A stretch of DNA of 64,000 nucleotides, taken from contig NC_068558.1 of the NCBI RefSeq assembly GCF_022201045.2, positions 30,585,501 through 30,649,500 of the forward strand, read 5' to 3'. Source of the stretch: Citrus sinensis (lineage: Eukaryota; Streptophyta; Magnoliopsida; Sapindales; Rutaceae). The position numbers and the translations under genes were made by a program. The notes under the pieces were generated by a model. That model was not told where the DNA came from. It made no database searches and saw nothing but the letters and a program-made list of their open reading frames with translations. Below are positions 10,225-54,341 of this stretch, piece by piece (positions within the stretch are counted from its first letter, which is position 1; each line of letters opens with the position of its first letter).

Positions 10225-10229
10225 AATTT

Positions 10230-13180: not shown

Positions 13181-13201
13181 AGTGTCTCAAAGTGATTCAT
13201 C

Positions 13202-13312: not shown

Positions 13313-13329
13313 AAAAATCGAAAATCACT

Positions 13330-14202: not shown

Positions 14203-14312
14203 ATTTTTGCATTATTGATGTCTGGAATTATTGTTTTCACTCTACTCATCCTTAAATGATTTTGGAGTTAGTATGCTTCATATATTATTAATTTTCTTTT
14301 CCTCTCTCTCTC

Positions 14313-14454
14313 ACTACTCTTTTCCCATCTATCTCAAATTATTTACATCTATTTTTATTCTATCATACTCTTTCATCACTCACACTACTCTTTTCCCATC
14401 TATCTCAAATTATTTACATCTATTTTTATTCTATCATACTCTTTCATCACTCAC
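14313..14454 (+). repeat. 71-bp tandem duplication, pyrimidine-rich
   Basis: Two near-identical 71-bp units (14313-14383, 14384-14454) starting ACTACTCTTTTCCC, in a C/T-rich stretch (14230-14570) that is open in one frame only through low complexity. Confidence 0.85.
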
Positions 14455-15614: not shown

Positions 15615-15652
15615 ATGCTTGAGGACAAGCATCATCTTGGTGTGGGGGAATT
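15615..15652 (+). other. E2 terminal hairpin + polypurine tract
   Basis: Inverted repeat ATGCTTG / CAAGCAT (15615-15621, 15626-15632) with loop AGGA, 4 nt, then the PPT TTGGTGTGGGGGAATT (15637-15652) abutting the right LTR. The PPT primes plus-strand synthesis (established). The hairpin role is unknown. Confidence 0.8.
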
Positions 15653-16842
15653 TGTTAGAGTGCAATTTATGCACTAGTTTTGCATTATTTACTTCCCTTA
15701 ATATCAATGTTTTGCACTTAATAATAGTGATTTACTTGTGTTTTACTTTTGTAGGTGCAATTCTATGGATTGATGATAAAATTGAGCTATAAGATGATGT
15801 TTAAGGATTATTGTTCCCTTGGAGAAATTATGAGCGGCAGAAGAACTTTGTTGATAAGGCGTGGGCGCGTGCTGTCAACTGCGGACCTGCAGTTTTTAGT
15901 TTAACGTGTTTTGTATTTTTGGTTATTTTTGTAATTACGAATTTAATATTTCAGATATTAGGATTTTATTTTAAATAGAATTCTAAAAGAGAAGAGAGAG
16001 AGAGTATTTAAGGGAGGAATCTATTGTGGAAAGGGAGATTTTTTGGATTGGAGAAAAAGAAACCCTAGATCTAATTTTTCTCTTCTCTCTATGAGGAACT
16101 AAACCCATTTTTCTGGTTGAAGGATAATGAAGCTTTGATTCATCACTACTGTGAGATCTTTCTTATGCTTTAATTGTTTTATTACTTTTTGGGTATTTGT
16201 TTATTCTCTGAATTAGTTTCATGATTATGTTTGTTAATTAGGTAATTGGCCACTATTTAATTATCAACTTAATCTATTGTCAATTAAAGGATTCATCGTA
16301 TGAAGAATTTAATGTTTGTGACAAATAACATAGCAGAGAGTTGTGTTGTGAGAATAAACAATCTAATTTAAATGAATCATCATATGTGTTGATTAGGATT
16401 TGGGTCTCTCTGGTTTTTCAGGCTGTCAATTGATTAAATCCTATGATCGTATCTAGGGTTGTCCATTGATTAGGGAAATAACCAACGGTCGTACCTTGGT
16501 TATCGACTAGTTAAGGAGAGATTGGCTATTAGAGGATCTCAATAGCTATAACCGGTCTATTCATAAGTAATAATAATCTATATTTGAATCAATGATCAGT
16601 AGTCGAATCAAGCTGAGTTAATTCCTTCAACCAGAGCTTTCTCCAATTTGAATTACAACTTTAATTTGCATTCTTATTATTTTAATTTGATTTTTATTAT
16701 TGTCAACAAAACCCCCATTTTATGTTTTGCATTTTAAAAGGATTTAAATAATTACCGATCTCTGTGGACACGACCCTGCTCAATCACTATACACAATTTA
16801 TTTAGAGTAGGAATTTATTTTTGTTGGCTTCGACACCCATCA
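15653..16842 (+). repeat. E2 right LTR
   Basis: 1190-bp direct repeat of 9035-10224, ending ACACCCATCA, followed by TSD ATTCC. Confidence 0.95.
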
Positions 16843-16847
16843 ATTCC

Positions 16848-30344: not shown

Positions 30345-30650
30345 TGTCATGACCCAACCTAGACCTAACAAGATATTGTCCGCTTTGGGCCTTAACAAGG
30401 CCCACACGGCTTTGTTCCTGGGGCACCCATACACCTCAAAACGCGTCTTGCCAATTAAGGTGTGGATCGCCCCTTATAAACCCAGCATCTTTCCTGTGCT
30501 TTGCCAATGTGGGATTTGCCTAGGGTGTTACATACACCCCCCCTTGGGGACTCAGCGTCTTCGCTGAGGTTTGCCCCACCATCGCTCAAGAGGACACGCG
30601 GAGCCTCTCTGATACCATAATGTCATGACCCAACCTATACCCGGCAAGAT
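30345..30650 (-). mobile_element. TRIM element, left LTR, interior and start of right LTR
   Basis: Tiny LTR element: plus-strand LTR 30345-30536 (192 bp, TGTCATGACCC to TTACATACA), interior 30537-30620 (84 bp), second LTR from 30621, cut at 30650 by the LOG array and finishing at 54342-54499. TSD CACTT at 30340-30344 and 54500-54504 splits the Copia RNase H frame exactly. Read on the minus strand, the interior has the initiator-Met primer site TGGTATCAGAG (30607-30617) and a G-rich PPT. It has no coding capacity, as usual for TRIMs. Confidence 0.88.
30551..30568 (-). other. TRIM PPT-proximal hairpin
   Basis: CTCAGCG / CGCTGAG (7 bp) around a loop that reads AAGA on the minus strand, immediately upstream of the TRIM polypurine tract (CCCCAAGGGGGG). 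It parallels the AGGA-loop hairpins of the Gypsy elements. Confidence 0.6.
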
Positions 30651-32036
30651 TGTTGAGTGTTAGAAAATGCATATTTATAAAGGAGAAAACCGTCATTTTA
30701 CATTTTAAGTCTTACTAACAACCCTTACTTTTATATATTTAACCTTCTTGTGATTTAATTACATGTGTTTTATTTTAATTAAGTATTTTATGTATTTTAG
30801 GGGCATTATAGTCATTTCACAATAAAGGAGAGATCAGACGGCAAAACGGACATCACTTTTGAACTCAGGACGGTCGAAAACCTTAGGAGGAGCATAAAAG
30901 GAAAAATGACACTATTCACATGTACGGTACTATTCACGTATACGGTACTGTCTACGTTACTGTTCACGACACTGTTCACATAGACGGATCGATGACGTGG
31001 CATTGACCGATGATGTGGCATTGACTGATGAGGTGTCACGATCCTGTTGGGCTAAAATTCTTATGTACTGTTGATGGTGAAATGGCAGCATATCAGTGGA
31101 CGAAAAATCTCGTGTACGGTGCATGCATCACACAGGATTATTTTCAACCAAACCGCGTTACTGTTCATCCGGGTCAAACCGCGTTACTGTTCAAAGTCGG
31201 GTCAAACCGTGTTACTGTTCATCCGCGTGGTCAAACCGTGGACTGTTGACTGATGACGTGGCGCAATCCTGAGCGTCCAAACTGTTTTTAATCCGATGGC
31301 CATGATTTACTCCATGTATCTATAAAAAGGGGGCCTCCCCCCCCTAATTTGATATCTCTGAATCCATTTTTGGGATCCATTTTCTGTAATTCCCTCTCCA
31401 TCTTGTATTTTCTTCGTATTTTAATAAATTCCCATTTTGCCCCTAGTTCAACTATGAGTGGCTAATTTTCTTTCAAGCTTGGGTTGAAGGTGAAGTCTCA
31501 ACATGTGTCATGGGCTTTATTTGGTAAATTTATTTTCTCTTCCCCTCTAGTTTTTGTGGATGTTTTGACTTCTCGTCGACAAATAATACTAATCTTGTCT
31601 AGTACCGCCTTGGTTTCACCGGCCCTCTAGTACAAGGTTATTATTATTTGGCACGATAAGCCCTTAGCACCATATTGATTAGAGCGTGGTTCATGAGGTG
31701 TGGATTCCCCCCTCATGATTTAATTGGCATTAATACGGATTATTTAGCCCATGATGCATGTTGATACGGATCCAGATACCCAAGTACGTCATTTCAATAT
31801 AATTCTCATCAATTTATTCTCGCCATTTCAATACCAATTTCAGAATTTATCCTCGCCATTTTAATTTAAGTTTTAGCATATACCAAATCATTTCCACCAT
31901 AAATCCAACAACCCATTTACAAAATTAATTCTAAACACAATTAAAATCCACCTCCTCGTGGGATCGACACTCGTCACCATAGATCTATACTACAATAGAT
32001 TCGTGCGCTTGCGAGTACATTAAAATTTGCACAACA
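30651..32036 (+). repeat. LOG-element LTR 1
   Basis: 1386 bp, TGTTGAGTGTTAG to TTGCACAACA. It differs from LTRs 2 and 3 at two positions noticed (CCTTAGGAGG versus CCTTAAGAGG; ATGACAC versus ATGGCAC). Confidence 0.95.
30990..31328 (+). promoter_or_regulatory. LTR promoter with W-box and TGACG motifs, TATA box
   Basis: TATA box TATAAAAA at 31321-31328. Upstream within ~260 bp are TTGAC[C/T] W-box cores at 31003, 31021 and 31246, reverse cores (GGTCAA) at 31172, 31200 and 31229, and two TGACGTGG elements at 30993 and 31254. WRKY factors bind W-boxes and TGA-type bZIPs bind TGACG (established). The poly(A)-type AATAAA is at 31433. The same arrangement recurs in LTRs 2 and 3 (offsets 11089 and 22300). 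Defence- or salicylate-linked activity is an inference from motif content. Confidence 0.6.
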
Positions 32037-32042: not shown

Positions 32043-32060
32043 TGGCGCCGTTGCCGGGGA
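32043..32060 (+). other. LOG element copy 1 primer-binding site
   Basis: TGGCGCCGTTGCCGGGGA, 6 nt after LTR 1, tRNA-Asp type. It is followed at once by GGTAAGTAAT, a strong 5' splice-site match. Confidence 0.9.
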
Positions 32061-32446
32061 GGTAAGTAATTTTAATTCATAGAATTAATTTTTGTGAATA
32101 ATTTCTTTTATTTGTTTTCTTGTATTTTTTTTATTATTAAAAAAAAAAGAAAAAAAAAGTGAATCTACATTTAAAGGTTAGTATTTCTTTTCTTTTTCTC
32201 TTCTTTAAAATTTTGTAATTTAATTTTCCATTTATTTTTCTTTGTAATTTTTTTTGTTTATCTTATTAATTTAATTTTTAGTTAATTTCTTTCACGTATT
32301 TATTTTTGTGTATTTTTATAGAAAGGTTGTAATAGCGCAATAAGGTTAGTATCGTAATTTCTCACTCTTCTTTATTTTTATTTGTTTTGTTCCCATCTTT
32401 ATTTTTTGTTTTGTTTGCATCTTTATTTTTATTTTATTTATTTTGC
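32061..32446 (+). other. 5' leader of LOG element copy 1, possible intron
   Basis: T-rich leader between primer site and gag. A donor-like GAG/GTAAGTAAT stands at 32060-32071, and acceptor-like T-rich TTTTTATAG ends at ~32320. No coding content is supported. The open frame from 32387 to the gag ATG is just translated T-rich leader. Confidence 0.45.
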
Positions 32447-35400
32447 ATGCATGGTCGTAGGTCATTATTACCTAATCTTGAACCTATAGACCTTGAACTA
32501 GAAAAAACACTTCGCACACACAAACACGTTAAAAATAAAATGGATTTACAAGCACCACAGGAGAGGCCATTTAAGGACTATTTTAGTCCCTTAGCTAATT
32601 TGAGCACGTCATGCATAAGATACCCAAATGTAGCTGCTAGGAGTTTTGAATTAAAACCTAGTGTGTTAAATTGTCTCCCTACATTTTATGGCCTAGAAAA
32701 TGAGGATCCATATAATCATTTGAATGATTTTCATGCCATTTGTCAAACATTCAAATATGAGAATTTTTCAGATGATGATGTTAAACTTAGACTATTCCCA
32801 TTTTCTTTAAAAGATAGAGCTCGTTCATGGTTAAATACTTTACCTGCTAATAGCATTTCATCATGGGAACAAATGGTAACGAAATTTTTGAATAAATATT
32901 TCCCAGTGCATAAAACCAATGCTATTCGCAGGGAAATCTCAGAGTTTACCCAGAGAGAGGACGAGCAATTTTTCGAAACATGGGAGCGATTCAATGGGCT
33001 ACTCTTGAAGTGTCCACATCATGGGTACGAGAAATGGCACCAATGCCAATACTTTTTGGAGGGATTACTACCAAATGTGCAAGAATGGCTAATGGCAACA
33101 AGTGGAGGAGAGCTAATGTCAAAAAGTGCATCAGAAATTTGGGAATTCTTCCAGCGACAAGCGGATAATTCCCAACAACGGAGTCGATCACTCAGGAATA
33201 CTAGAAGAATTAAAGGAGTAAATGAGGTTCAAATTGGCGAGTCAACTTCGGGAATCAAAGAAGTCAAGGAGATGGTTGAAGGTCTTGCTCGACAAATAGC
33301 ATCGTTATCGACTGCTAAATCAACAGAACCACATGACCATGACTCATACTCAGATCAAGCCAATGCCATAGGTGTAATGAGAAAGCCATCAAATTACAAC
33401 CCATACTCCAACACATATAACCCTGGATGGAGAGACCACCCCAATTTTTCATGGTCTCAAGGACTCCAACAGAATGGACCAGCAGCTCCAGCTCCACCAA
33501 TGCAACCAATTCCTCAAATTTCTCAAGCCTCTCAACCACCATTTAGACCATACAATCAGAACCAGAACTACTCTCAACCCAGACCATGGGAGGATTCATT
33601 CCAAAATCTCAAGAATCTTACTCACTCTACGATTGAGCAACAGAACCGCACCATTGATGGACTACGAAATGAGTTGAGAGCAGGCTTCAACTCACAAGCT
33701 CAATCGGTTTCAAGCCTCGAGAAGATGGTGGGACAACTTGCTTCTTCAGTTCAGACCTTGGCAATGACCGTTGAGAAAGGCAAATTTCCAAGTCAACCAG
33801 TACCTAATCCTAAAGGAGTACATGAAGCAAGTACCAGTTCACCACAGCAGCATGGAGAGGTCAAAGCAGTAATGACCTTGCGAAAAGGAAAGGAAGTCGA
33901 CAACAAAGTGGAGATGCCGGTGACAAAAGAAAATCAAATTGTACCTGTGAATGTTGAGGACTCATCACCGGAGGAGAAAGAAGAAACTAACCCACGAGAA
34001 TACGTTCCCAAAGCTCCATTTCCTCAGAGGTTAGCGAAAGGAAAAAAGGGAAAATCCACAGGTGAGATTCTCGAAATCTTCAAACAGGTAAGTGTTAATA
34101 TCCCTTTGCTTGATGCTATTAAACAAGTTCCATCTTATGCCAAGTTTCTTAAAGACCTTTGTACTAAAAAGAGAAATATGCATGTTCAAAAGAAGGCATT
34201 TTTAACAGAAAATGTTAGTTCTATACTCCAACATAAAATTCCTTTAAAATGCAAAGACCCTGGCTCCCCCACTATCTCATGTAGTATAGGGAACCACACA
34301 ATTGAGAATGCTTTGTTGGATTTAGGAGCTAGTGTAAATCTGTTACCTTATTCAGTGTTTGTGAAACTTGGACTTGGAGAATTACACCCAACTCCAGTGG
34401 TGTTACAGCTTGCAGATCGGTCCACGAAAATACCTCGTGGTATTGTGGAGGACGTGCTTATCCAGGTAGACAAATTTTATTTTCCTGTTGATTTCATTGT
34501 AATTGACACTCAACCAATACAGGATTCAAGGAAGCACATCCCCATTATTCTAGGCCGACCTTTCTTGGCAACTGCAGATGCTCACATTCAATGCAGGACT
34601 GGAAATATGCAGTTGTCTTTCGGCAACATGACTATGGAGCTGAACATCTTCAACATTGCCAAACAACCTCACAGTGCAGATGATGGAATTGTTGATGTGG
34701 ATTTAATTGAAGCATTAGTTGATGATACTTTTGTTTCAAACCTTAGTGATCCTTTACAAACATGTTTAACTCACTTTGGTTTGAATTTTGATATTGACAG
34801 ATCGGTCGATGAGGTCAACGCCCTGCTTGACTCCGCACCATCCTTGGACACTAATAAATGGAAGTCAAGAGTTGAACAACTAGCACCATCAGAGAAGAAA
34901 CTCATCCCATCATCAGAATCACCACCGAAACTCGAGCTCAAACCATTACCCAACACTCTGGAATATGCATTTTTGGGAGAAGAAAGCACTCTGCCGGTAA
35001 TCATCTCATCATCCCTAAATGACGAACAAAAAGGTAAGTTGTTGGATGTTTTAAAAGATCACAAAGGAGCATTAGGATGGACCATAGCAGACATTAAAGG
35101 TATAAATCCAGTAGACTGCATGCATTACATTCACCTTGATGAAAATGCTAAATCTACTAGGGAAATGCAACGTCGGTTAAATCCTAATATGAAAGAAGTT
35201 GTTAGAACTGAAGTCCTTAAGCTATTAGACGCAGGTATCATTTACCCAATTTCTGATAGTTCATGGGTCAGTCCTGTACAAGTTGTCCCTAAAAAGTCAG
35301 GAGTCACAGTAGTTACCAATGCTGATAATGAATTGATACCCACTAGAGTGACTACAGGATGGCGTGTATGCATTGATTATAGAAAATTGAATTCTGTCAC

Positions 35401-37834
35401 ACGTAAAGACCATTTTCCTTTACCATTTATTGATCAAATGCTTGATAGATTAGCAGGACATGAATTTTATTGCTTTCTAGATGGTTACTCAGGATATAAT
35501 CAGATTCCCATAGCACCAAAAGATCAAGAGAAAACTACTTTCACTTGCCCTTTTGGCACATTTGCATATAGGAGAATGCCATTTGGATTATGTAATGCAC
35601 CTGCTACATTTCAACGATGCATGTTGAGCATTTTTTCTGATATGGTGGAACGATTCCTTGAAGTCTTTATGGATGATTTTTCTGTCTTTGGTGACTCATT
35701 TGATCAATGTTTACATCATCTAACACTAGTTCTGCAGAGATGTATCGAGAAGAACTTGGTCTTAAATTGGGAGAAATGCCATTTTATGGTAAAACAAGGT
35801 ATTGTTCTCGGTCACATCATTTCGAGCAAAGGTATTGAGGTTGACAAAGCCAAGGTGGATCTCATTTCTAATCTTCCTCCACCCAAAACAGTCAGAGAAG
35901 TAAGATCTTTCCTTGGGCATGCTGGTTTCTATAGACGTTTCATTAAAGATTTTAGCAAAGTTTCTAGACCCTTATGCAATTTGCTTGCTAAGGATGTACC
36001 TTTTGTCTTTGATGATTCATGTCTTGTTGCGTTTGAAAAATTAAAGCATTTGTTGACATCATCACCCATCATTCAGCCCCCGAACTGGAAATTACCATTT
36101 GAGCTCATGTGTGATGCATCTGATTATGCAGTAGGAGCAGTATTAGGACAAAGAGTTGATCGAATTCCCCATGTTATTTACTATGCTAGTATGACATTAA
36201 ATGATGCACAGTTGAACTATTCAACTACTGAAAAAGAAATGCTAGCAGTAGTGTTTGCATTGGAAAAATTTCGATCATATCTCATTGGTTGTAAAATAAT
36301 TATATTCACAGATCATGCTGCTCTTAAATATCTTCTCACAAAGAAAGATGCAAAAGCCAGACTAATTCGTTGGGTGTTACTTTTGCAGGAATTTGACTTG
36401 GAATTCAAAGATAAAAAAGGGACAGAAAATGTTGTGGCGGACCACCTCTCTCGTCTCCATTTTGACACAATTACAGAATCATTACCATTGAATGAGTCAT
36501 TTCCAGATGAACAATTAATGAATGTGGAAGTATTACCTTGGTATGCTGATATAGTTAATTATCTTGTTACAGGTAAACTTCCAGAGCATTGGACCAAGCA
36601 AGACAAGGCTAAATTCTTTGCAGAGATAAAGAATTTCTTTTGGGATGACCCGTATTTGTTCAAGTATTGTGCAGACCAAATTGTTAGACGATGTGTCCCA
36701 GAAAGTGAAATTCAGAATATCCTTTCATTCTGCCATGAACAAGCTTGTGGAGGCCATTTCAGTGCTAAGAAAACAGCGACTAAAGTTTTACAATGTGGTT
36801 TCTATTGGCCATCTATATTTCGAGACGCTTACACTTTCTGTTCTTCATGTGATAGGTGTCAACGAATGGGAAGCATTACACGAAGGAACATGATGCCACT
36901 AAATCCAATTTTAGTGGTTGAGATTTTTGACGTATGGGGTATCGACTTCATGGGACCCTTTCCCCCTTCTTTTGGCCATCAATACATATTGGTTGCTGTT
37001 GACTACGTATCAAAATGGGTAGAAGCAATTCCATGTAGGACCAATGATCACAAGGTGGTAATAGCATTTTTAAAAAGCAACATTGTTTCACGCTTTGGAT
37101 TCCCTCAAGCAATAATCAGTGATGGTGGTGCCCACTTTTGTAACAAAGCATTCAAAGCTCTTTTGACAAAGTATTCAATCACACACAAAGTGGCGACCCC
37201 GTATCATCCGCAAACCAGTGGCCAAGTTGAGATCTCCAATCGAGAAATAAAGCACATATTAGAAAAAATGGTGAGACCGGACAGAAAAGATTGGTCATTA
37301 AGACTTGATGATGCCTTATGGGCATATAGAACGGCTTTCAAGACCCCGATTGGGATGTCACCCTACAGGCTAGTGTATGGAAAAGCTTGCCACCTACCTG
37401 TGGAACTCGAGCATCGTGCATATTGGGCCATCAAGAAATTCAATTTTGACATGCAGCAAGCCAGCTCAGAAAGAAGATTACAGCTGGCAGAACTTGAAGA
37501 AATTCGTAATGACGCGTACGAAAATGCCAAGATTTACAAGCAACGAATGAAAGTCTTCCATGATAAGCAAATTATGAGAAAATCGTTCACTCCAGGTCAG
37601 AAAGTGCTTTTATTCAATTCTCGCTTGCACCTATTCCCAGGTAAGTTACGCTCTCGTTGGTCTGGTCCCTTTATTGTTCATACTGTTTTTCCACATGGGG
37701 CAATTGAAATTAAAGACCCAAAGAATGGTGTCACGTTTAAAGTTAATGGTCAAAGATTAAAGCCATATCTAGAGTACCAACCACATGAAGAAGACACCGA
37801 AATAAATTTGAGTGACCCACTAAATTTGAATTGA
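32447..37834 (+). CDS. LOG element gag-pol polyprotein, copy 1 (intact)
   Basis: About 1795 codons without stop or shift. I chose ATG 32447 ([20 protein letters not shown]) because it aligns with the gag starts of E1 and E2. The frame is open 20 codons further up, but that part only translates T-rich leader. Order: gag core (~residues 60-240, no clear CCHC knuckle), Pro/Gln linker, protease [12 protein letters not shown] (~624), RT with [19 protein letters not shown] and FMDDFSVFG (~1074), RNase [15 protein letters not shown] (~1222) with [16 protein letters not shown] and [11 protein letters not shown], integrase HHCC (~1429-1471), D-D-E at GIDFMGP (~1498), ISDGGAHF (~1559) and QVEISN (~1594), GPF tail (~1739). 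Athila-type. It appears fully competent, and neither host nor element copy nearby shows decay. Confidence 0.95.
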
Positions 37835-37961: not shown

Positions 37962-38195
37962 ATGAGTCTCATACTTAGACCGTTCCTCCTGAGCATTCTT
38001 AAACCACTTCAACGTGTCAAAACTCATCTCAAAAGGCAGATTCAATTTTGTAAAACACAACGCATTTGGGCTCTACAACCACCAGAGTTAGTAGCCTATG
38101 TTGAGGGTTTAGAACGCCAACTCAGTGACATTGAGAGAAGTGTTTACGACATCCAGTTGGAGCTTGAGGTAAATTCAATAAGAGGAAGATTTTAA
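37962..38195 (+). CDS. LOG element small ORF 2, copy 1
   Basis: 77 codons from ATG 37962 (MSLILRPFLLSILKPLQR), with a hydrophobic start, a basic middle and a Leu/Glu heptad-like end (ELVAYVEGLERQLSDIERSV) suggesting a short coiled coil. It lies 127 bp after gag-pol. At 38168/38169 there is GAG/GTAAAT and at 38231-38240 TGTGCTTTAG. Removing that 72-nt AT-rich stretch keeps the frame open to a stop at 38310-38312, so the true protein may be about 92 residues. No family is recognised. It is identical in copy 2. The position fits a subordinate ORF made by splicing or reinitiation. Confidence 0.5.
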   Translation: MSLILRPFLLSILKPLQRVKTHLKRQIQFCKTQRIWALQPPELVAYVEGLERQLSDIERSVYDIQLELEVNSIRGRF

Positions 38196-38336
38196 TTTTC
38201 TTTGTGTGTTTTAATTTGTTTTTCTATTTGTGTGCTTTAGTTTGTTACCCCGGTGAAGTGGCGGATAACGGTACTCCGTGACAATCAAGTCGGTTACTTC
38301 AGTTTCCCATAATAACTGATATTCTGAGGCGAAGGT

Positions 38337-38894
38337 ATGGACAGAAACGAGATTCTAGCGAAGCTTCACAAGCGATTCCCTTCACTTCCTCAGAATGCCC
38401 TCCTTACGATCTATAAAGCTCGGTCCGAACGCATGCGATTACTCATGAGGAATAACATACCTGCTGACATCCGTTGGTTAATCGAGGCTAAAGTACGATC
38501 GGCAGGTGAGTTACCTCCAAAATTTATTGCATACATGCCTGGTTGTGGTAAAGGAAATTATGCAAGAAAACGACGAGCTCGAAGAATTTCTGTTGCTTGT
38601 CATAAGTGTGCCAGAATGAGTTGCAATAAAAACCCATGTTCTTTAGGAATGGTGTCTGATAACAGGGAAGATAAGATTCAATTCATTAGGGATGGCTTGA
38701 ATAAGGAGTCATTGGATGATATCCTTTTGTCTCTTGAAACGCATCCCAGTGGATATGTGCAAGGAGCGATTCTCCAGTTATGGCCATTATTCCAGAAAGA
38801 GCATGCACGATATAGTCTCGGGAATCTGACTATAAACGACCCTGTTTGCCAGTTTATAAGAAAACTGGATAGGAAGCCTATCCTCGACCCATAG
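38337..38894 (+). CDS. LOG element basic Cys-rich ORF 3, copy 1
   Basis: 185 codons, start MDRNEILAKLHKRFPSLPQ. The notable feature is a basic run ARKRRARR (residues 76-83) directly followed by a compact Cys cluster C88-x2-C91-x4-C96-x4-C101, with His at 89 and an aromatic-poor tail rich in charged residues. A basic run plus zinc-finger-like cluster suggests nucleic-acid binding and nuclear targeting. The layout recalls the small cysteine-rich nucleic-acid-binding proteins of some plant flexiviruses, several of which suppress RNA silencing. That is a resemblance in layout only, not a proven homology. It lies between ORF 2 and the LOG-like ORF in an intact element and is identical in copy 2, which argues for use. 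Confidence 0.6.
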   Translation: MDRNEILAKLHKRFPSLPQNALLTIYKARSERMRLLMRNNIPADIRWLIEAKVRSAGELPPKFIAYMPGCGKGNYARKRRARRISVACHKCARMSCNKNPCSLGMVSDNREDKIQFIRDGLNKESLDDILLSLETHPSGYVQGAILQLWPLFQKEHARYSLGNLTINDPVCQFIRKLDRKPILDP

Positions 38895-39235
38895 AGGGCG
38901 TTCAAGCCGTTTCTGGACGTAGAACCAGAGGAAGATGTGAGCCACAGTCGCAACTACCTGTAAATATCCTTTCACTTTACTGTTATTTTATTTCACTATT
39001 GTTTTATTATGTGCATTATTGTCTTTAAAAATTTTATTACTGTTTGCTTTTTCCTTATTACTGTTTTCTTTTTCCCTTTTACTGTTTCCTTTTTGACTAG
39101 CGAGCCACGTGCTTTACGCGTTATTTGACACTGACATGTTACCTCATACATAACTGTGATCCACTGTCACCAAGATTCTTAAATGTGATTTCCTTTTTGT
39201 CAAGCACTCACAAATTATTTTCGAGAAGTATCACA

Positions 39236-39904
39236 ATGGCAGCTACTCCCAATAGACAATTCAAGAACATTTGTGTGCTTTCTGGATTTACCTATGGCAA
39301 ACATAAAGAGTTCGTTGAGGCAGCTATAGATCTTGGTCGAAGCATAGCAGCGAGAAAATTACATTTGGTGTATGGAGGAGGTAATCGAGGGTTATCAAAA
39401 ATGGTCTCAGAAGCAGCTTTTATCAGAGGAAGTCAAGTGTTAGGCATCATCCCAAGAGTCTTAAAACCATTGGGCAGTTCGTCTGACTCATCAACTGGAG
39501 AAGAGTTAGTCGTCTCAGGTATGCAAGAAAGAATAACTGAAATGCTTAATCATGCTGATGCTTTTATTTTCCTTCCAGGAGATCTTGCAACACTAGAGGC
39601 ACTTATCACGCTAGCATCTTGGGCCCATCTGCACATCCACCAAAAACCCATCGGTTTGTTAAATGTCAATAACTTTTATGATGGCTTTATCGCATTTCTT
39701 AACCATGCAATAAAAAACTATTTCATTCCCGCTAATGTGAAAAAACTCTTTATTTGTGCTCACACTGCTAATGAGCTACTTGATCTGTTACAAGCGTATA
39801 AACCGGAGCCAGACCCCTGGACCTTTGTGTTGGAGCGCCCAAATAATGATGGTAACAGTAGCAGCAGTAAGAAGTACAAATTAGATTTAACTCTACGCCT
39901 GTAA
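39236..39904 (+). CDS. Retrotransposon-borne LOG-like protein, copy 1
   Basis: 222 codons from ATG 39236 (MAATPNRQFKNICVLSGF). I preferred this start because the family begins here and the upstream extension has no ATG in frame. It matches LOG (cytokinin riboside 5'-monophosphate phosphoribohydrolase), which releases free cytokinin base from the nucleotide: GKHKEFVEAAIDLGRSIA, LVYGGGNRGL (residues 44-53), VLGIIPRVL, MQERITEM with conserved Arg99, DAFIFLPG and KPIGLLNV. The signature PGGxGTxxE is changed to PGDLATLEA (114-122), losing two Gly and the catalytic Glu (Ala122). Length is usual for LOG. It is intronless, although plant LOG genes have introns, so capture through RNA is likely. The reading frame is preserved in both copies, so a non-enzymatic role or altered substrate is possible. 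Confidence 0.88.
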   Translation: MAATPNRQFKNICVLSGFTYGKHKEFVEAAIDLGRSIAARKLHLVYGGGNRGLSKMVSEAAFIRGSQVLGIIPRVLKPLGSSSDSSTGEELVVSGMQERITEMLNHADAFIFLPGDLATLEALITLASWAHLHIHQKPIGLLNVNNFYDGFIAFLNHAIKNYFIPANVKKLFICAHTANELLDLLQAYKPEPDPWTFVLERPNNDGNSSSSKKYKLDLTLRL

Positions 39905-41739: not shown

Positions 41740-43158
41740 TGTTGAGTGTTAGAAAATGCATATTTATAAAGGAGAAAACCGTCATTTTACATTTTAAGTC
41801 TTACTAACAACCCTTACTTTTATATATTTAACCTTCTTGTGATTTAATTACATGTGTTTTATTTTAATTAAGTATTTTATGTATTTTAGGGGCATTATAG
41901 TCATTTCACAATAAAGGAGAGATCAGACGGCAAAACGGACATCACTTTTGAACTCAGGACGGTCGAAAACCTTAAGAGGAGCATAAAAGGAAAAATGGCA
42001 CTATTCACATGTACGGTACTATTCACGTATACGGTACTGTCTACGTTACTGTTCACGACACTGTTCACATAGACGGATCGATGACGTGGCATTGACCGAT
42101 GATGTGGCATTGACTGATGAGGTGTCACGATCCTGTTGGGCTAAAATTCTTATGTACTGTTGATGGTGAAATGGCAGCATATCAGTGGACGAAAAATCTC
42201 GTGTACGGTGCATGCATCACACAGGATTATTTTCAACCAAACCGCGTTACTGTTCATCCGGGTCAAACCGCGTTACTGTTCAAAGTCGGGTCAAACCGTG
42301 TTACTGTTCATCCGCGTGGTCAAACCGTGGACTGTTGACTGATGACGTGGCGCAATCCTGAGCGTCCAAACTGTTTTTAATCCGATGGCCATGATTTACT
42401 CCATGTATCTATAAAAAGGGGGCCTCCCCCCCCTAATTTGATATCTCTGAATCCATTTTTGGGATCCATTTTCTGTAATTCCCTCTCCATCTTGTATTTT
42501 CTTCGTATTTTAATAAATTCCCATTTTGCCCCTAGTTCAACTATGAGTGGCTAATTTTCTTTCAAGCTTGGGTTGAAGGTGAAGTCTCAACATGTGTCAT
42601 GGGCTTTATTTGGTAAATTTATTTTCTCTTCCCCTCTAGTTTTTGTGGATGTTTTGACTTCTCGTCGACAAATAATACTAATCTTGTCTAGTACCGCCTT
42701 GGTTTCACCGGCCCTCTAGTACAAGGTTATTATTATTTGGCACGATAAGCCCTTAGCACCATATTGATTAGAGCGTGGTTCATGAGGTGTGGATTCCCCC
42801 CTCATGATTTAATTGGCATTAATACGGATTATTTAGCCCATGATGCATGTTGATACGGATCCAGATACCCAAGTACGTCATTTCAATATAATTCTCATCA
42901 ATTTATTCTCGCCATTTCAATACCAATTTCAGAATTTATTCTCGCCATTTCAATACCAATTTCAGAATTTATCCTCGCCATTTTAATTTAAGTTTTAGCA
43001 TATACCAAATCATTTCCACCATAAATCCAACAACCCATTTACAAAATTAATTCTAAACACAATTAAAATCCACCTCCTCGTGGGATCGACACTCGTCACC
43101 ATAGATCTATACTACAATAGATTCGTGCGCTTGCGAGTACATTAAAATTTGCACAACA
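41740..43158 (+). repeat. LOG-element LTR 2 (shared, middle)
   Basis: 1419 bp. It acts as 3' LTR of copy 1 and 5' LTR of copy 2. It has an extra 33-bp tandem unit (TTTCAATACCAATTTCAG then AATTTATTCTCGCCA) around 42916-42970 that LTRs 1 and 3 lack. Confidence 0.95.
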
Positions 43159-43182: not shown

Positions 43183-43570
43183 GGTAAGTAATTTTAATTC
43201 ATAGAATTAATTTTTGTGAATAATTTCTTTTATTTGTTTTCTTGTATTTTTTTTTATTATTAAAAAAAAAAAGAAAAAAAAAGTGAATCTACATTTAAAG
43301 GTTAGTATTTCTTTTCTTTTTCTCTTCTTTAAAATTTTGTAATTTAATTTTCCATTTATTTTTCTTTGTAATTTTTTTTGTTTATCTTATTAATTTAATT
43401 TTTAGTTAATTTCTTTCACGTATTTATTTTTGTGTATTTTTATAGAAAGGTTGTAATAGCGCAATAAGGTTAGTATCGTAATTTCTCACTCTTCTTTATT
43501 TTTATTTGTTTTGTTCCCATCTTTATTTTTTGTTTTGTTTGCATCTTTATTTTTATTTTATTTATTTTGC

Positions 43571-46500
43571 ATGCATGGTCGTAGGTCATTATTACCTAAT
43601 CTTGAACCTATAGACCTTGAACTAGAAAAAACACTTCGCACACACAAACACGTTAAAAATAAAATGGATTTACAAGCACCACAGGAGAGGCCATTTAAGG
43701 ACTATTTTAGTCCCTTAGCTAATTTGAGCACGTCATGCATAAGATACCCAAATGTAGCTGCTAGGAGTTTTGAATTAAAACCTAGTGTGTTAAATTGTCT
43801 CCCTACATTTTATGGCCTAGAAAATGAGGATCCATATAATCATTTGAATGATTTTCATGCCATTTGTCAAACATTCAAATATGAGAATTTTTCAGATGAT
43901 GATGTTAAACTTAGACTATTCCCATTTTCTTTAAAAGATAGAGCTCGTTCATGGTTAAATACTTTACCTGCTAATAGCATTTCATCATGGGAACAAATGG
44001 TAACGAAATTTTTGAATAAATATTTCCCAGTGCATAAAACCAATGCTATTCGCAGGGAAATCTCAGAGTTTACCCAGAGAGAGGACGAGCAATTTTTCGA
44101 AACATGGGAGCGATTCAATGGGCTACTCTTGAAGTGTCCACATCATGGGTACGAGAAATGGCACCAATGCCAATACTTTTTGGAGGGATTACTACCAAAT
44201 GTGCAAGAATGGCTAATGGCAACAAGTGGAGGAGAGCTAATGTCAAAAAGTGCATCAGAAATTTGGGAATTCTTCCAGCGACAAGCGGATAATTCCCAAC
44301 AACGGAGTCGATCACTCAGGAATACTAGAAGAATTAAAGGAGTAAATGAGGTTCAAATTGGCGAGTCAACTTCGGGAATCAAAGAAGTCAAGGAGATGGT
44401 TGAAGGTCTTGCTCGACAAATAGCATCGTTATCGACTGCTAAATCAACAGAACCACATGACCATGACTCATACTCAGATCAAGCCAATGCCATAGGTGTA
44501 ATGAGAAAGCCATCAAATTACAACCCATACTCCAACACATATAACCCTGGATGGAGAGACCACCCTAATTTTTCATGGTCTCAAGGACTCCAACAGAATG
44601 GACCAGCAGCTCCAGCTCCACCAATGCAACCAATTCCTCAAATTTCTCAAGCCTCTCAACCACCATTTAGACCATACAATCAGAACCAGAACTACTCTCA
44701 ACCCAGACCATGGGAGGATTCATTCCAAAATCTCAAGAATCTTACTCACTCTACGATTGAGCAACAGAACCGCACCATTGATGGACTACGAAATGAGTTG
44801 AGAGCAGGCTTCAACTCACAAGCTCAATCGGTTTCAAGCCTCGAGAAGATGGTGGGACAACTTGCTTCTTCAGTTCAGACCTTGGCAATGACCGTTGAGA
44901 AAGGCAAATTTCCAAGTCAACCAGTACCTAATCCTAAAGGAGTACATGAAGCAAGTACCAGTTCACCACAGCAGCATGGAGAGGTCAAAGCAGTAATGAC
45001 CTTGCGAAAAGGAAAGGAAGTCGACAACAAAGTGGAGATGCCGGTGACAAAAGAAAATCAAATTGTACCTGTGAATGTTGAGGACTCATCACCGGAGGAG
45101 AAAGAAGAAACTAACCCACGAGAATACGTTCCCAAAGCTCCATTTCCTCAGAGGTTAGCGAAAGGAAAAAAGGGAAAATCCACAGGTGAGATTCTCGAAA
45201 TCTTCAAACAGGTAAGTGTTAATATCCCTTTGCTTGATGCTATTAAACAAGTTCCATCTTATGCCAAGTTTCTTAAAGACCTTTGTACTAAAAAGAGAAA
45301 TATGCATGTTCAAAAGAAGGCATTTTTAACAGAAAATGTTAGTTCTATACTCCAACATAAAATTCCTTTAAAATGCAAAGACCCTGGCTCCCCCACTATC
45401 TCATGTAGTATAGGGAACCACACAATTGAGAATGCTTTGTTGGATTTAGGAGCTAGTGTAAATCTGTTACCTTATTCAGTGTTTGTGAAACTTGGACTTG
45501 GAGAATTACACCCAACTCCAGTGGTGTTACAGCTTGCAGATCGGTCCACGAAAATACCTCGTGGTATTGTGGAGGACGTGCTTATCCAGGTAGACAAATT
45601 TTATTTTCCTGTTGATTTCATTGTAATTGACACTCAACCAATACAGGATTCAAGGAAGCACATCCCCATTATTCTAGGCCGACCTTTCTTGGCAACTGCA
45701 GATGCTCACATTCAATGCAGGACTGGAAATATGCAGTTGTCTTTCGGCAACATGACTATGGAGCTGAACATCTTCAACATTGCCAAACAACCTCACAGTG
45801 CAGATGATGGAATTGTTGATGTGGATTTAATTGAAGCATTAGTTGATGATACTTTTGTTTCAAACCTTAGTGATCCTTTACAAACATGTTTAACTCACTT
45901 TGATTTGAATTTTGATATTGACAGATCGGTCGATGAGGTCAACGCCCTGCTTGACTCCGCACCATCCTTGGACACTAATAAATGGAAGTCAAGAGTTGAA
46001 CAACTAGCACCATCAGAGAAGAAACTCATCCCATCATCAGAATCACCACCGAAACTCGAGCTCAAACCATTACCCAACACTCTGGAATATGCATTTTTGG
46101 GAGAAGAAAGCACTCTGCCGGTAATCATCTCATCATCCCTAAATGACGAACAAAAAGGTAAGTTGTTGGATGTTTTAAAAGATCACAAAGGAGCATTAGG
46201 ATGGACCATAGCAGACATTAAAGGTATAAATCCAGTAGACTGCATGCATTACATTCACCTTGATGAAAATGCTAAATCTACTAGGGAAATGCAACGTCGG
46301 TTAAATCCTAATATGAAAGAAGTTGTTAGAACTGAAGTCCTTAAGCTATTAGACGCAGGTATCATTTACCCAATTTCTGATAGTTCATGGGTCAGTCCTG
46401 TACAAGTTGTCCCTAAAAAGTCAGGAGTCACAGTAGTTACCAATGCTGATAATGAATTGATACCCACTAGAGTGACTACAGGATGGCGTGTATGCATTGA

Positions 46501-48958
46501 TTATAGAAAATTGAATTCTGTCACACGTAAAGACCATTTTCCTTTACCATTTATTGATCAAATGCTTGATAGATTAGCAGGACATGAATTTTATTGCTTT
46601 CTAGATGGTTACTCAGGATATAATCAGATTCCCATAGCACCAAAAGATCAAGAGAAAACTACTTTCACTTGCCCTTTTGGCACATTTGCATATAGGAGAA
46701 TGCCATTTGGATTATGTAATGCACCTGCTACATTTCAACGATGCATGTTGAGCATTTTTTCTGATATGGTGGAACGATTCCTTGAAGTCTTTATGGATGA
46801 TTTTTCTGTCTTTGGTGACTCATTTGATCAATGTTTACATCATCTAACACTAGTTCTGCAGAGATGTATCGAGAAGAACTTGGTCTTAAATTGGGAGAAA
46901 TGCCATTTTATGGTAAAACAAGGTATTGTTCTCGGTCACATCATTTCGAGCAAAGGTATTGAGGTTGACAAAGCCAAGGTGGATCTCATTTCTAATCTTC
47001 CTCCACCCAAAACAGTCAGAGAAGTAAGATCTTTCCTTGGGCATGCTGGTTTCTATAGACGTTTCATTAAAGATTTTAGCAAAGTTTCTAGACCCTTATG
47101 CAATTTGCTTGCTAAGGATGTACCTTTTGTCTTTGATGATTCATGTCTTGTTGCGTTTGAAAAATTAAAGCATTTGTTGACATCATCACCCATCATTCAG
47201 CCCCCGAACTGGAAATTACCATTTGAGCTCATGTGTGATGCATCTGATTATGCAGTAGGAGCAGTATTAGGACAAAGAGTTGATCGAATTCCCCATGTTA
47301 TTTACTATGCTAGTATGACATTAAATGATGCACAGTTGAACTATTCAACTACTGAAAAAGAAATGCTAGCAGTAGTGTTTGCATTGGAAAAATTTCGATC
47401 ATATCTCATTGGTTGTAAAATAATTATATTCACAGATCATGCTGCTCTTAAATATCTTCTCACAAAGAAAGATGCAAAAGCCAGACTAATTCGTTGGGTG
47501 TTACTTTTGCAGGAATTTGACTTGGAATTCAAAGATAAAAAAGGGACAGAAAATGTTGTGGCGGACCACCTCTCTCGTCTCCATTTTGACACAATTACAG
47601 AATCATTACCATTGAATGAGTCATTTCCAGATGAACAATTAATGAATGTGGAAGTATTACCTTGGTATGCTGATATAGTTAATTATCTTGTTACAGGTAA
47701 ACTTCCAGAGCATTGGACCAAGCAAGACAAGGCTAAATTCTTTGCAGAGATAAAGAATTTCTTTTGGGATGACCCGTATTTGTTCAAGTATTGTGCAGAC
47801 CAAATTGTTAGACGATGTGTCCCAGAAAGTGAAATTCAGAATATCCTTTCATTCTGCCATGAACAAGCTTGTGGAGGCCATTTCAGTGCTAAGAAAACAG
47901 CGACTAAAGTTTTACAATGTGGTTTCTATTGGCCATCTATATTTCGAGACGCTTACACTTTCTGTTCTTCATGTGATAGGTGTCAACGAATGGGAAGCAT
48001 TACACGAAGGAACATGATGCCACTAAATCCAATTTTAGTGGTTGAGATTTTTGACGTATGGGGTATCGACTTCATGGGACCCTTTCCCCCTTCTTTTGGC
48101 CATCAATACATATTGGTTGCTGTTGACTACGTATCAAAATGGGTAGAAGCAATTCCATGTAGGACCAATGATCACAAGGTGGTAATAGCATTTTTAAAAA
48201 GCAACATTGTTTCACGCTTTGGATTCCCTCAAGCAATAATCAGTGATGGTGGTGCCCACTTTTGTAACAAAGCATTCAAAGCTCTTTTGACAAAGTATTC
48301 AATCACACACAAAGTGGCGACCCCGTATCATCCGCAAACCAGTGGCCAAGTTGAGATCTCCAATCGAGAAATAAAGCACATATTAGAAAAAATGGTGAGA
48401 CCGGACAGAAAAGATTGGTCATTAAGACTTGATGATGCCTTATGGGCATATAGAACGGCTTTCAAGACCCCGATTGGGATGTCACCCTACAGGCTAGTGT
48501 ATGGAAAAGCTTGCCACCTACCTGTGGAACTCGAGCATCGTGCATATTGGGCCATCAAGAAATTCAATTTTGACATGCAGCAAGCCAGCTCAGAAAGAAG
48601 ATTACAGCTGGCAGAACTTGAAGAAATTCGTAATGACGCGTACGAAAATGCCAAGATTTACAAGCAACGAATGAAAGTCTTCCATGATAAGCAAATTATG
48701 AGAAAATCGTTCACTCCAGGTCAGAAAGTGCTTTTATTCAATTCTCGCTTGCACCTATTCCCAGGTAAGTTACGCTCTCGTTGGTCTGGTCCCTTTATTG
48801 TTCATACTGTTTTTCCACATGGGGCAATTGAAATTAAAGACCCAAAGAATGGTGTCACGTTTAAAGTTAATGGTCAAAGATTAAAGCCATATCTAGAGTA
48901 CCAACCACATGAAGAAGACACCGAAATAAATTTGAGTGACCCACTAAATTTGAATTGA
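43571..48958 (+). CDS. LOG element gag-pol polyprotein, copy 2 (intact)
   Basis: Same 1795-codon frame as copy 1, with one amino-acid difference noticed: Asp instead of Gly in [12 protein letters not shown] (codon near 45902), in the linker between protease and RT. All catalytic motifs are the same: DLGAS, FMDDF, CDASD, HHCC and D-D-E. A silent difference occurs near 44566. Both copies are therefore potentially able to supply proteins, in contrast to decayed E1 and E3. Confidence 0.95.
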
Positions 48959-49085: not shown

Positions 49086-49319
49086 ATGAGTCTCATACTT
49101 AGACCGTTCCTCCTGAGCATTCTTAAACCACTTCAACGTGTCAAAACTCATCTCAAAAGGCAGATTCAATTTTGTAAAACACAACGCATTTGGGCTCTAC
49201 AACCACCAGAGTTAGTAGCCTATGTTGAGGGTTTAGAACGCCAACTCAGTGACATTGAGAGAAGTGTTTACGACATCCAGTTGGAGCTTGAGGTAAATTC
49301 AATAAGAGGAAGATTTTAA
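49086..49319 (+). CDS. LOG element small ORF 2, copy 2
   Basis: Same 77 codons as 37962-38195, including the donor-like site at 49292/49293 and acceptor-like site ending 49364. No family is recognised. Confidence 0.5.
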   Translation: MSLILRPFLLSILKPLQRVKTHLKRQIQFCKTQRIWALQPPELVAYVEGLERQLSDIERSVYDIQLELEVNSIRGRF

Positions 49320-49460: not shown

Positions 49461-50018
49461 ATGGACAGAAACGAGATTCTAGCGAAGCTTCACAAGCGAT
49501 TCCCTTCACTTCCTCAGAATGCCCTCCTTACGATCTATAAAGCTCGGTCCGAACGCATGCGATTACTCATGAGGAATAACATACCTGCTGACATCCGTTG
49601 GTTAATCGAGGCTAAAGTACGATCGGCAGGTGAGTTACCTCCAAAATTTATTGCATACATGCCTGGTTGTGGTAAAGGAAATTATGCAAGAAAACGACGA
49701 GCTCGAAGAATTTCTGTTGCTTGTCATAAGTGTGCCAGAATGAGTTGCAATAAAAACCCATGTTCTTTAGGAATGGTGTCTGATAACAGGGAAGATAAGA
49801 TTCAATTCATTAGGGATGGCTTGAATAAGGAGTCATTGGATGATATCCTTTTGTCTCTTGAAACGCATCCCAGTGGATATGTGCAAGGAGCGATTCTCCA
49901 GTTATGGCCATTATTCCAGAAAGAGCATGCACGATATAGTCTCGGGAATCTGACTATAAACGACCCTGTTTGCCAGTTTATAAGAAAACTGGATAGGAAG
50001 CCTATCCTCGACCCATAG
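49461..50018 (+). CDS. LOG element basic Cys-rich ORF 3, copy 2
   Basis: 185 codons, same protein as 38337-38894, with the ARKRRARR run and C-x2-C-x4-C-x4-C cluster unchanged. Confidence 0.6.
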   Translation: MDRNEILAKLHKRFPSLPQNALLTIYKARSERMRLLMRNNIPADIRWLIEAKVRSAGELPPKFIAYMPGCGKGNYARKRRARRISVACHKCARMSCNKNPCSLGMVSDNREDKIQFIRDGLNKESLDDILLSLETHPSGYVQGAILQLWPLFQKEHARYSLGNLTINDPVCQFIRKLDRKPILDP

Positions 50019-50359: not shown

Positions 50360-51028
50360 ATGGCAGCTACTCCCAATAGACAATTCAAGAACATTTGTGT
50401 GCTTTCTGGATTTACCTATGGCAAACATAAAGAGTTCGTTGAGGCAGCTATAGATCTTGGTCGAAGCATAGCAGCGAGAAAATTACATTTGGTGTATGGA
50501 GGAGGTAATCGAGGGTTATCAAAAATGGTCTCAGAAGCAGCTTTTATCAGAGGAAGTCAAGTGTTAGGCATCATCCCAAGAGTCTTAAAACCATTGGGCA
50601 GTTCGTCTGACTCATCAACTGGAGAAGAGTTAGTCGTCTCAGGTATGCAAGAAAGAATAACTGAAATGCTTAATCATGCTGATGCTTTTATTTTCCTTCC
50701 AGGAGATCTTGCAACACTAGAGGCACTTATCACGCTAGCATCTTGGGCCCATCTGCACATCCACCAAAAACCCATCGGTTTGTTAAATGTCAATAACTTT
50801 TATGATGGCTTTATCGCATTTCTTAACCATGCAATAAAAAACTATTTCATTCCCGCTAATGTGAAAAAACTCTTTATTTGTGCTCACACTGCTAATGAGC
50901 TACTTGATCTGTTACAAGCGTATAAACTGGAGCCAGACCCCTGGACCTTTGTGTTGGAGCGCCCAAATAATGATGGTAACAGTAGCAGCAGTAAGAAGTA
51001 CAAATTAGATTTAACTCTACGCCTGTAA
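50360..51028 (+). CDS. Retrotransposon-borne LOG-like protein, copy 2
   Basis: 222 codons, same as copy 1 except Leu instead of Pro at residue 190 (C-terminal tail, outside the nucleotide-binding fold). The altered PGDLATLEA motif and conserved Arg99 are the same in both copies, so the active-site change precedes the duplication. Confidence 0.88.
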   Translation: MAATPNRQFKNICVLSGFTYGKHKEFVEAAIDLGRSIAARKLHLVYGGGNRGLSKMVSEAAFIRGSQVLGIIPRVLKPLGSSSDSSTGEELVVSGMQERITEMLNHADAFIFLPGDLATLEALITLASWAHLHIHQKPIGLLNVNNFYDGFIAFLNHAIKNYFIPANVKKLFICAHTANELLDLLQAYKLEPDPWTFVLERPNNDGNSSSSKKYKLDLTLRL

Positions 51029-52950: not shown

Positions 52951-54336
52951 TGTTGAGTGTTAGAAAATGCATATTTATAAAGGAGAAAACCGTCATTTTA
53001 CATTTTAAGTCTTACTAACAACCCTTACTTTTATATATTTAACCTTCTTGTGATTTAATTACATGTGTTTTATTTTAATTAAGTATTTTATGTATTTTAG
53101 GGGCATTATAGTCATTTCACAATAAAGGAGAGATCAGACGGCAAAACGGACATCACTTTTGAACTCAGGACGGTCGAAAACCTTAAGAGGAGCATAAAAG
53201 GAAAAATGGCACTATTCACATGTACGGTACTATTCACGTATACGGTACTGTCTACGTTACTGTTCACGACACTGTTCACATAGACGGATCGATGACGTGG
53301 CATTGACCGATGATGTGGCATTGACTGATGAGGTGTCACGATCCTGTTGGGCTAAAATTCTTATGTACTGTTGATGGTGAAATGGCAGCATATCAGTGGA
53401 CGAAAAATCTCGTGTACGGTGCATGCATCACACAGGATTATTTTCAACCAAACCGCGTTACTGTTCATCCGGGTCAAACCGCGTTACTGTTCAAAGTCGG
53501 GTCAAACCGTGTTACTGTTCATCCGCGTGGTCAAACCGTGGACTGTTGACTGATGACGTGGCGCAATCCTGAGCGTCCAAACTGTTTTTAATCCGATGGC
53601 CATGATTTACTCCATGTATCTATAAAAAGGGGGCCTCCCCCCCCTAATTTGATATCTCTGAATCCATTTTTGGGATCCATTTTCTGTAATTCCCTCTCCA
53701 TCTTGTATTTTCTTCGTATTTTAATAAATTCCCATTTTGCCCCTAGTTCAACTATGAGTGGCTAATTTTCTTTCAAGCTTGGGTTGAAGGTGAAGTCTCA
53801 ACATGTGTCATGGGCTTTATTTGGTAAATTTATTTTCTCTTCCCCTCTAGTTTTTGTGGATGTTTTGACTTCTCGTCGACAAATAATACTAATCTTGTCT
53901 AGTACCGCCTTGGTTTCACCGGCCCTCTAGTACAAGGTTATTATTATTTGGCACGATAAGCCCTTAGCACCATATTGATTAGAGCGTGGTTCATGAGGTG
54001 TGGATTCCCCCCTCATGATTTAATTGGCATTAATACGGATTATTTAGCCCATGATGCATGTTGATACGGATCCAGATACCCAAGTACGTCATTTCAATAT
54101 AATTCTCATCAATTTATTCTCGCCATTTCAATACCAATTTCAGAATTTATCCTCGCCATTTTAATTTAAGTTTTAGCATATACCAAATCATTTCCACCAT
54201 AAATCCAACAACCCATTTACAAAATTAATTCTAAACACAATTAAAATCCACCTCCTCGTGGGATCGACACTCGTCACCATAGATCTATACTACAATAGAT
54301 TCGTGCGCTTGCGAGTACATTAAAATTTGCACAACA
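52951..54336 (+). repeat. LOG-element LTR 3
   Basis: 1386 bp, no 33-bp duplication, shares with LTR 2 the two substitutions noticed against LTR 1. Followed by TSD AAGAT. Confidence 0.95.
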
Positions 54337-54341
54337 AAGAT

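Follow-up and report, generated by a model that had tools for sequence, protein, structure and literature searches.

Most extra open reading frames (ORFs) of plant retrotransposons are without known domains, according to PMC9289625. One section of that paper reports a YgdH (LOG) domain in long terminal repeat (LTR) elements of Citrus sinensis and C. clementina and, with the filter off, of Populus trichocarpa, citing Steinbauerova 2011, so that the presence of a LOG domain in Citrus gypsy elements is already published. The domain in these Citrus and poplar elements is the one that we describe here; it figures there as a domain hit, in a section without residue loss, selection, a tail or a cysteine-rich ORF. 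Gypsy elements of Phalaenopsis with an ORF for an AlkB-type RNA demethylase, treated in the same paper, offer a second parallel, since a host-type enzyme domain has likewise become fixed as an extra ORF. Their enzyme is active in vitro, whereas the Citrus LOG form has lost catalytic residues.

The enzymes to which this domain belongs, the LONELY GUY (LOG) proteins, are cytokinin riboside 5'-monophosphate phosphoribohydrolases. In CgLOG, as set out in the relevant parts of PMC4979012, the phosphate is contacted by Gly116-Gly118 and Thr119, while Arg99 and Glu122 are proposed to be catalytic. Alanine at AMP-binding or catalytic residues, S19A excepted, causes an almost complete loss of activity. 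The protein is a dimer in which the neighbouring subunit contributes Glu125 and Trp129 to the prenyl site, and the list of pocket residues that we use below comes from the same paper. Two further systems are relevant. LxLxL is a defined pattern of the EAR motif, the alternative being DLNx(x)P (motif definitions in PMC9956375). The C-terminal LxLxL of the effector HaRxL21 binds TOPLESS, and the corresponding passages of PMC7446885 also report ten LxLxL-containing effectors of which none bound it, LxLxL alone being insufficient. Like the Citrus protein, such pathogen effectors are foreign proteins within plant cells and carry LxLxL at the C-terminus; they are encoded by pathogens, whereas our protein is encoded by a retrotransposon. 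Among plant viruses, CVB p12 is a transcription activator and silencing suppressor (PMC7588395, section on p12), and the cysteine-rich proteins of mandariviruses, including the CYVCV CRP, are linked to transcription activation or silencing suppression (PMC12172455, section on these proteins).

In the open-licence literature we found no account of the tail, the catalytic-residue loss or the cysteine-rich neighbour, nothing on LOG or EAR in retrotransposons beyond PMC9289625 and nothing on the cysteine-rich domain in retrotransposons; two papers on extra ORFs, PMC11963269 and PMC7264820, contain no mention of Citrus, lysine decarboxylase, cytokinin or carlaviruses. Beyond what is published, we describe an EAR-type tail, the contrast between a tail that is kept and an enzyme that is lost, and a cysteine-rich neighbour in an apparently exchanged block. 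Plant LTR elements with an additional ORF are ordinary in kind. The content of this one is unusual: selection on the ORF has been measured, the loss of its enzyme residues can be traced, and it has a concrete candidate partner.

A young tandem element with three accessory ORFs

The window, that is, the whole stretch of DNA analysed, comprises 64,000 nucleotides of Citrus sinensis (contig NC_068558.1, positions 30,585,501 to 30,649,500); positions below are counted from its first letter. As the first-pass annotation had claimed, it contains an LTR retrotransposon with a LOG-like ORF, recognizable by its LTRs, an AAGAT duplication and a match to PF03641, and the 222-codon frame is open in both tandem copies. 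The main features are the following (subfamilies are defined further below):

30651-32036, + strand: LTR 1, TG...CA, 1386 bp, by self-BLAST; 5-bp duplication AAGAT at 30646-30650
32043-32059, + strand: primer binding site TGGCGCCGTTGCCGGGG, complementing the 3' end of tRNA-Asp(GTC)
32387-37834, + strand: gag-pol ORF, copy 1 (gag, protease, RT, RNase H, integrase; Pfam)
37962-38195, + strand: 77-aa accessory ORF, copy 1, present also in subfamilies B and C
38337-38894, + strand: 185-aa cysteine-rich ORF, copy 1 (RKRRARR basic stretch, CxxC)
39236-39904, + strand: LOG-domain ORF, copy 1, 222 aa
39575-39601, + strand: altered active-site motif PGDLATLEA, residues 114-122 (LOG equivalent PGGxGTxxE)
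39881-39901, + strand: C-terminal LDLTLRL, residues 216-222, an LxLxL EAR-type tail after KKYK, copy 1
41740-43158, + strand: LTR 2, 1419 bp, common to both tandem units; G-rich tract just upstream
43511-48958, + strand: gag-pol ORF, copy 2
49086-49319, + strand: 77-aa accessory ORF, copy 2
49461-50018, + strand: cysteine-rich ORF, copy 2
50360-51028, + strand: LOG-domain ORF, copy 2, one residue different (P190L)
51005-51025, + strand: LDLTLRL tail, copy 2
52951-54336, + strand: LTR 3; 5-bp duplication AAGAT at 54337-54341

Self-BLAST and reading of the boundaries delimit a unit of the form LTR-internal-LTR-internal-LTR (30651-54336), with AAGAT immediately flanking the outer LTRs on either side. 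LTR 2 has a private 33-bp tandem duplication that is absent from both outer LTRs. As LTR 1 and LTR 3 differ by only two substitutions over 1386 bases, the insertion is young. A splice-donor-like AG|GTAAGT lies at 32060, immediately 3' of the primer binding site. The genome has 15 places that match the tRNA-end pattern, and the two that were checked are both tRNA-Asp(GTC) genes. Priming by tRNA-Asp is typical of the Athila lineage. From its LTRs, the order of RT before integrase, the target duplication and this primer site, we classify the element as Athila-type Ty3/gypsy; the gag-pol ORF of copy 1 has no Pfam match to a chromodomain. Each internal region carries one gag-pol ORF followed by three small sense ORFs (77, 185 and 222 aa). 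The first of these has a coiled-coil-like look, no Pfam match, and roughly 45-58% identity to its counterparts in subfamily B and C loci.

A LOG-domain protein without the enzyme signature

The 222-aa protein matches PF03641 (E 8.9e-28), and its best solved relative is Arabidopsis At2g37210 (E 3.9e-45, far beyond chance). Its translation bears out the motifs first noted, namely VYGGGNRGL (residues 45-53), Arg99 and PGDLATLEA in place of PGGxGTxxE; that description did not mention the LxLxL tail at the C-terminus or the virus-like cysteine-rich neighbour. Besides E122A, the phosphate loop carries G116D and G118A, so that Asp116, Ala118 and Ala122 stand beside the retained Thr119, Glu121, Arg99 and Trp129. 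Only Met96 and Trp129 are left of the prenyl-pocket set Met96, His97, Lys100, Glu125 and Trp129. Compared with LONELY GUY enzymes, the window protein thus shares PF03641, Arg99, Met96, Trp129 and VYGGG, and differs by the loss of Gly116, Gly118, Glu122, His97, Lys100 and Glu125, by its intronless ORF and by its LxLxL tail. The AlphaFold models are poor (mean pLDDT 34 and 57), and the LOG fold therefore rests on sequence homology.

An alignment of 122 rows (120 proteins among the matches listed and the two window ORFs) has glutamate at position 122 in none of the 120 rows aligned there (109 Ala, 7 Thr, 4 others), and arginine at position 99 in 102 of 111 aligned rows, 11 of the 122 being gapped. 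In 62 rows from the Citrus genome, position 116 is Asp in all 62, while at position 122 alanine stands in 55 and glutamate in two; the two Glu122 copies, L055 and L065 (the latter with stops), both have Asp116 and Ala118. The uniform Asp116, found across all subfamilies (A, A2, B and C), rules out a loss of the motif inside this single element. The Citrus form is probably a selected, conserved LOG-domain protein that is enzymatically inactive, and a database label of cytokinin enzyme is probably wrong for it; listed Citrus and poplar entries bear such names. Among the matches listed, three Citrus gene models (P0055, P0077 and P0087) predict a single protein with both the cysteine-rich and the LOG domain, and three poplar relatives (P0248, P0260 and P0265) are named LOGL10. 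These fused models and LOGL10 entries are probable cases of transposon proteins annotated as hormone genes. The closest annotated proteins among the matches listed are from Citrus x changshan-huyou.

Copies in the Citrus genome and purifying selection

A protein search of the 299.7-Mb assembly (11 contigs) scored 150 places from 2,112 first-look candidates, and a 29-base pattern over the altered motif, with at most three mismatches, hit 1,169 places as against none for the reversed control. All but one of the 150 best-scoring copies are free of stops, in a list that favours intact copies. For comparison we used 62 rows, each covering at least 215 of the 222 codons: 15 of subfamily A (the window type; L001 and window copy 1 are one place), 7 of A2 (more diverged A), 26 of the 30 fetched for B, and 14 of C. 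Shorter or ungrouped rows were left out, including L083 and L084, which had been fetched with C.

Between subfamilies, mean dN/dS of stop-free ORFs (Nei-Gojobori) is 0.19 for A-B (117 pairs), 0.22 for A-C (182 pairs) and 0.25 for B-C (126 pairs), at mean dS of 0.55-0.74. The ratios are the same without the duplicate row (108, 168 and 126 pairs), and codon bootstraps of single pairs give 95% ranges inside 0.12-0.34. The amino-acid sequence has thus been constrained while silent sites changed. The stretch around the active site (residues 96-129) has a dN of 0.03-0.07; among the five stretches compared, this is the lowest value for two of three pairs and a tie for the lowest in the third. Within older groups dN/dS is higher (0.52 for B-B, 0.62 for A2-A2), as expected from neutral decay following insertion, and 19 of the 30 subfamily-B loci have internal stops. 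The between-subfamily ratios rule out a passenger sequence; the tests that the first-pass annotation had suggested (dN/dS, presence in the family, stops) all speak against it, for copies retrieved by searches biased towards intact ORFs.

Relatives in other plants and an older lineage

With L042, a decayed Citrus relative of what we call lineage D, as query, 932 proteins were retrieved, of which the best 120 were examined. Those with an organism name are from Populus, Reevesia, Diplodiscus and Xanthoceras. These best 120 of 932 have Gly116, Thr119 and Glu122 in all 120, Gly118 in 119 and Arg99 in 112, while His97, Lys100 and Glu125 are mostly replaced. In lineage D itself the motif reads PGGLGTLEE in L042 and L085, QGGLDTLEE in L050 and PGGLDTLKE in L063.

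In a 35-row tree (midpoint-rooted drawing; two host fragments, L040 and L041, omitted), nine host LOG rows, seven from Citrus and two from Arabidopsis, group together (100/100). The 25 LxLxL-family rows stand opposite (98/95), with A, B and C nested within them, and the tail-less Xanthoceras protein P0360 falls between the two. If host LOGs are taken as outgroup, the motif loss is derived; as judged from these alignments, the Citrus lineages have lost the enzyme signature and kept the tail. All nine Citrus host LOG loci found have introns and an intact GG[YF]GT[LM]EE, and the window protein is 37-46% identical to host LOGs. A capture from a present-day Citrus LOG gene is rejected because the host loci are intron-bearing, motif-intact and separate in the tree; the contrast between intron-bearing host loci and an intronless retroelement ORF fits the capture of a spliced mRNA. 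It had been proposed that an intact element kept a captured host LOG after its activity was lost or changed. A LOG-derived ORF, a young intact element and lost catalytic residues agree with this; capture and loss in this one element do not, since the lineage is older and the motif is intact in relatives outside the Citrus type.

The listings also pair cysteine-rich and LOG-type proteins. The longest contig listed is 8,723 bases for both P0140 (cysteine-rich) and P0295 (LOG type), and 4,511 bases for both P0171 and P0261; each pair presumably lies on one contig. From these paired listings and the poplar match in the LOG-domain section of PMC9289625, we infer that the poplar and Malvaceae relatives are encoded by elements.

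A conserved C-terminal LxLxL tail

In the Citrus rows, LxLxL lies within the last nine residues in 58 of 62, and the tail is complete in 60 of 62. The last seven residues are 95% identical between subfamilies as against 75.5% overall, and the linker block that precedes them 48%. Among the matches listed, 72 of 89 proteins of at least 205 residues have the tail; the other 17 comprise six with a changed leucine and 11 ending otherwise. Of the wider relatives of that length (79, from the best 120 of 932), 70 end exactly in LxLxL, as against 2.7% in shuffles, and only four have LxLxL elsewhere. Across all 79, leucine occupies position -5 in 72, -3 in 71 and -1 in 74, positions -4 and -2 are variable, and 74 have a basic patch ahead of the tail (at least two K/R at -11 to -8). 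As a control, LxLxL occurs in the last 12 residues of six of 120 neighbour-ORF proteins among the matches listed; four of these six are long models ending in KLDLTL.L which, by their length, are fusions with the LOG ORF. The C-termini identified for Citrus LOG genes, five of nine (L039, L040, L043, L045 and L048), have no LxLxL.

Lineage D keeps the tail leucines with codons different from those of A in L063 and, frame-shifted, in L050; one leucine is a stop in L042, and L085 is truncated. The tail codons TTA GAT TTA ACT are near-identical in DNA across A, B and C, and blocks nearby are also conserved as DNA; a cis element could therefore account for some of the tail's conservation in Citrus. 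The dN of residues 214-222 (0.17, 0.05 and 0.11 for three pairs) is not clearly lower than that of the whole ORF (0.15, 0.14 and 0.12).

A virus-like cysteine-rich neighbour in a possibly movable block

Copy 1 of the 185-aa ORF stays below the cut-offs of two Pfam families of viral proteins (Carla_C4, 16.3 vs 20.9 bits; Viral_NABP, 14.1 vs 23 bits). All seven of its relatives tested reach at least one of these cut-offs, with a best E of 3.5e-08, and so match carlavirus nucleic-acid-binding proteins. It shares with the carlavirus and mandarivirus proteins (relevant sections of PMC7588395 and PMC12172455) a basic stretch and a CxxC zinc-finger-like core, and differs in having long extensions at both termini, with a Carla_C4 match that covers only residues 69-95 of 185. 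Scans of viral contigs with four queries found no relative. Of 59 LOG-bearing loci, 51 carry the ORF on the strand of the LOG ORF; L027 and L054, which lack it, represent a single place. The ORF is constrained (A-C dN/dS 0.26), and its product would probably counter RNA silencing.

Two noncoding blocks that flank this ORF (38258-38322 and 38892-38975) are conserved between subfamilies, and the first has a short upstream frame (MADNGTP) in B and C. Spliced mRNAs might be made from the donor-like site behind the primer binding site and the pyrimidine-rich AG sites that precede both small ORFs, the AG before the LOG ORF not being clearly conserved in subfamily B. A read-through extension past the TAG of the cysteine-rich ORF was considered, because the next 66 bases are conserved; the five A/C differences there, read by eye, all alter the amino acid, which makes a DNA or RNA element likelier.

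The accessory block and pol have diverged to different extents. Between the window and one subfamily-C element, pS in pol is 0.62-0.87 over most of the compared part and 0.54 in the last 71 codons, while dS between the window and subfamily C is 0.88 for the cysteine-rich ORF and 0.70 for the LOG ORF, with flanking noncoding DNA still alignable. Silent sites of A-B pol are saturated too (195 codons). For B-C, dS is 0.73 in pol, 0.54 in the LOG ORF and 0.28-0.33 in the cysteine-rich ORF (five B copies without stops there). With pol silent sites near saturation and accessory dS lower, these comparisons, with one C and one B pol sequence, suggest that the accessory block is younger than pol and was exchanged between lineages after their pol genes had parted.

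Discussion

We see the ORF as an accessory gene of an Athila-type Ty3/gypsy element, inherited from an older lineage present in several rosids, an ancestor of which would once have captured a spliced plant LOG mRNA. In the proteins of this lineage, a variable linker would join the LOG-fold domain to a basic patch, and an LxLxL (EAR-type) motif would form the C-terminus. The Citrus form has lost the catalytic Glu and the phosphate loop while fold and tail remained under purifying selection, so the conserved job would not be the release of cytokinin. The LOG fold, which forms dimers in known LOGs, might display two EAR tails which, if the protein enters the nucleus, could dock to TOPLESS-type co-repressors. 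The co-repressor would then be redirected or titrated, altering transcription of the element or host defence, possibly to the benefit of the element, and the protein may act beside the adjacent virus-like cysteine-rich protein. We give about even chances to the protein being a scaffold of LOG fold whose tail docks to a co-repressor, rather than a cytokinin enzyme; the observations behind this are the ORF, the selection on it, its conserved tail, its lost catalytic residues and the co-location in Citrus. More tentative, and somewhat short of even, is the broader picture of a rosid retrotransposon lineage with a two-part host-control kit, made of a virus-type silencing suppressor and a TOPLESS-recruiting LOG-fold protein, swapped as a module, from which Citrus dropped the enzyme and kept the tail. 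If the tail binds TOPLESS, a transposon would share the docking trick of pathogen effectors.

The tail might instead serve self-assembly, nuclear export or binding to the element's Gag or cysteine-rich protein. A short LxLxL motif need not bind TOPLESS (effector tests in PMC7446885), but the exact C-terminal site, the preceding basic patch and alternating leucines with variable spacers fit EAR usage, and we consider this explanation unlikely, at roughly one chance in five. Somewhat less probable still is interference, akin to the decoy or partner of host LOG suggested in the first-pass annotation, in which the retroelement protein would pair with host LOG subunits or bind nucleotides without hydrolysis and so lower cytokinin activation. 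Since the CgLOG dimer borrows Glu125 and Trp129 from the neighbouring subunit for its prenyl site (structural description in PMC4979012), a protein without Glu122 and Glu125 that yet retains Trp129 and Arg99 could act in this way. However, this would hardly be the ancestral role, because the wider family keeps the catalytic loop; the window protein is only 37-46% identical to host LOGs, and the tail is left unexplained.

That loop, nearly invariant in the best 120 of 932 (G116, T119 and E122 in 120, G118 in 119, R99 in 112), would suit an active phosphoribohydrolase serving replication in the wider family, and the replacement of most pocket residues H97, K100 and E125 an altered substrate, the Citrus form being derived and doing its chemistry through other residues. 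Against this, the window protein is without Gly116, Gly118 and Glu122, and CgLOG alanine mutants other than S19A are nearly dead (mutant assays in PMC4979012); we hold it to be just as improbable as interference. That the ORF is kept mainly for cis-acting RNA or DNA signals, its protein being incidental, agrees with the two conserved noncoding blocks but is largely refuted by silent-site divergence (dN/dS 0.19-0.25 at dS 0.55-0.74), which leaves it very little credit. Least credible of all is a functionless passenger transduplicate: older copies do decay normally, as the stops in 19 of 30 subfamily-B loci and the B dN/dS of 0.52 indicate, but purifying selection between subfamilies refutes it and relatives with the same tail exist in other plants.

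Other elements in the window

Two direct repeats of 1,191 bp (9035-10225 and 15653-16843), 99.7% identical, enclose an intact 849-aa ORF (10290-12839) with gag and protease matches only, and the whole (9035-16843) looks like another young element with a shortened pol. An LTR-like sequence at 3592-4711, about 89% identical to the LTR of the LOG-bearing element, is probably an older solo or partial copy.
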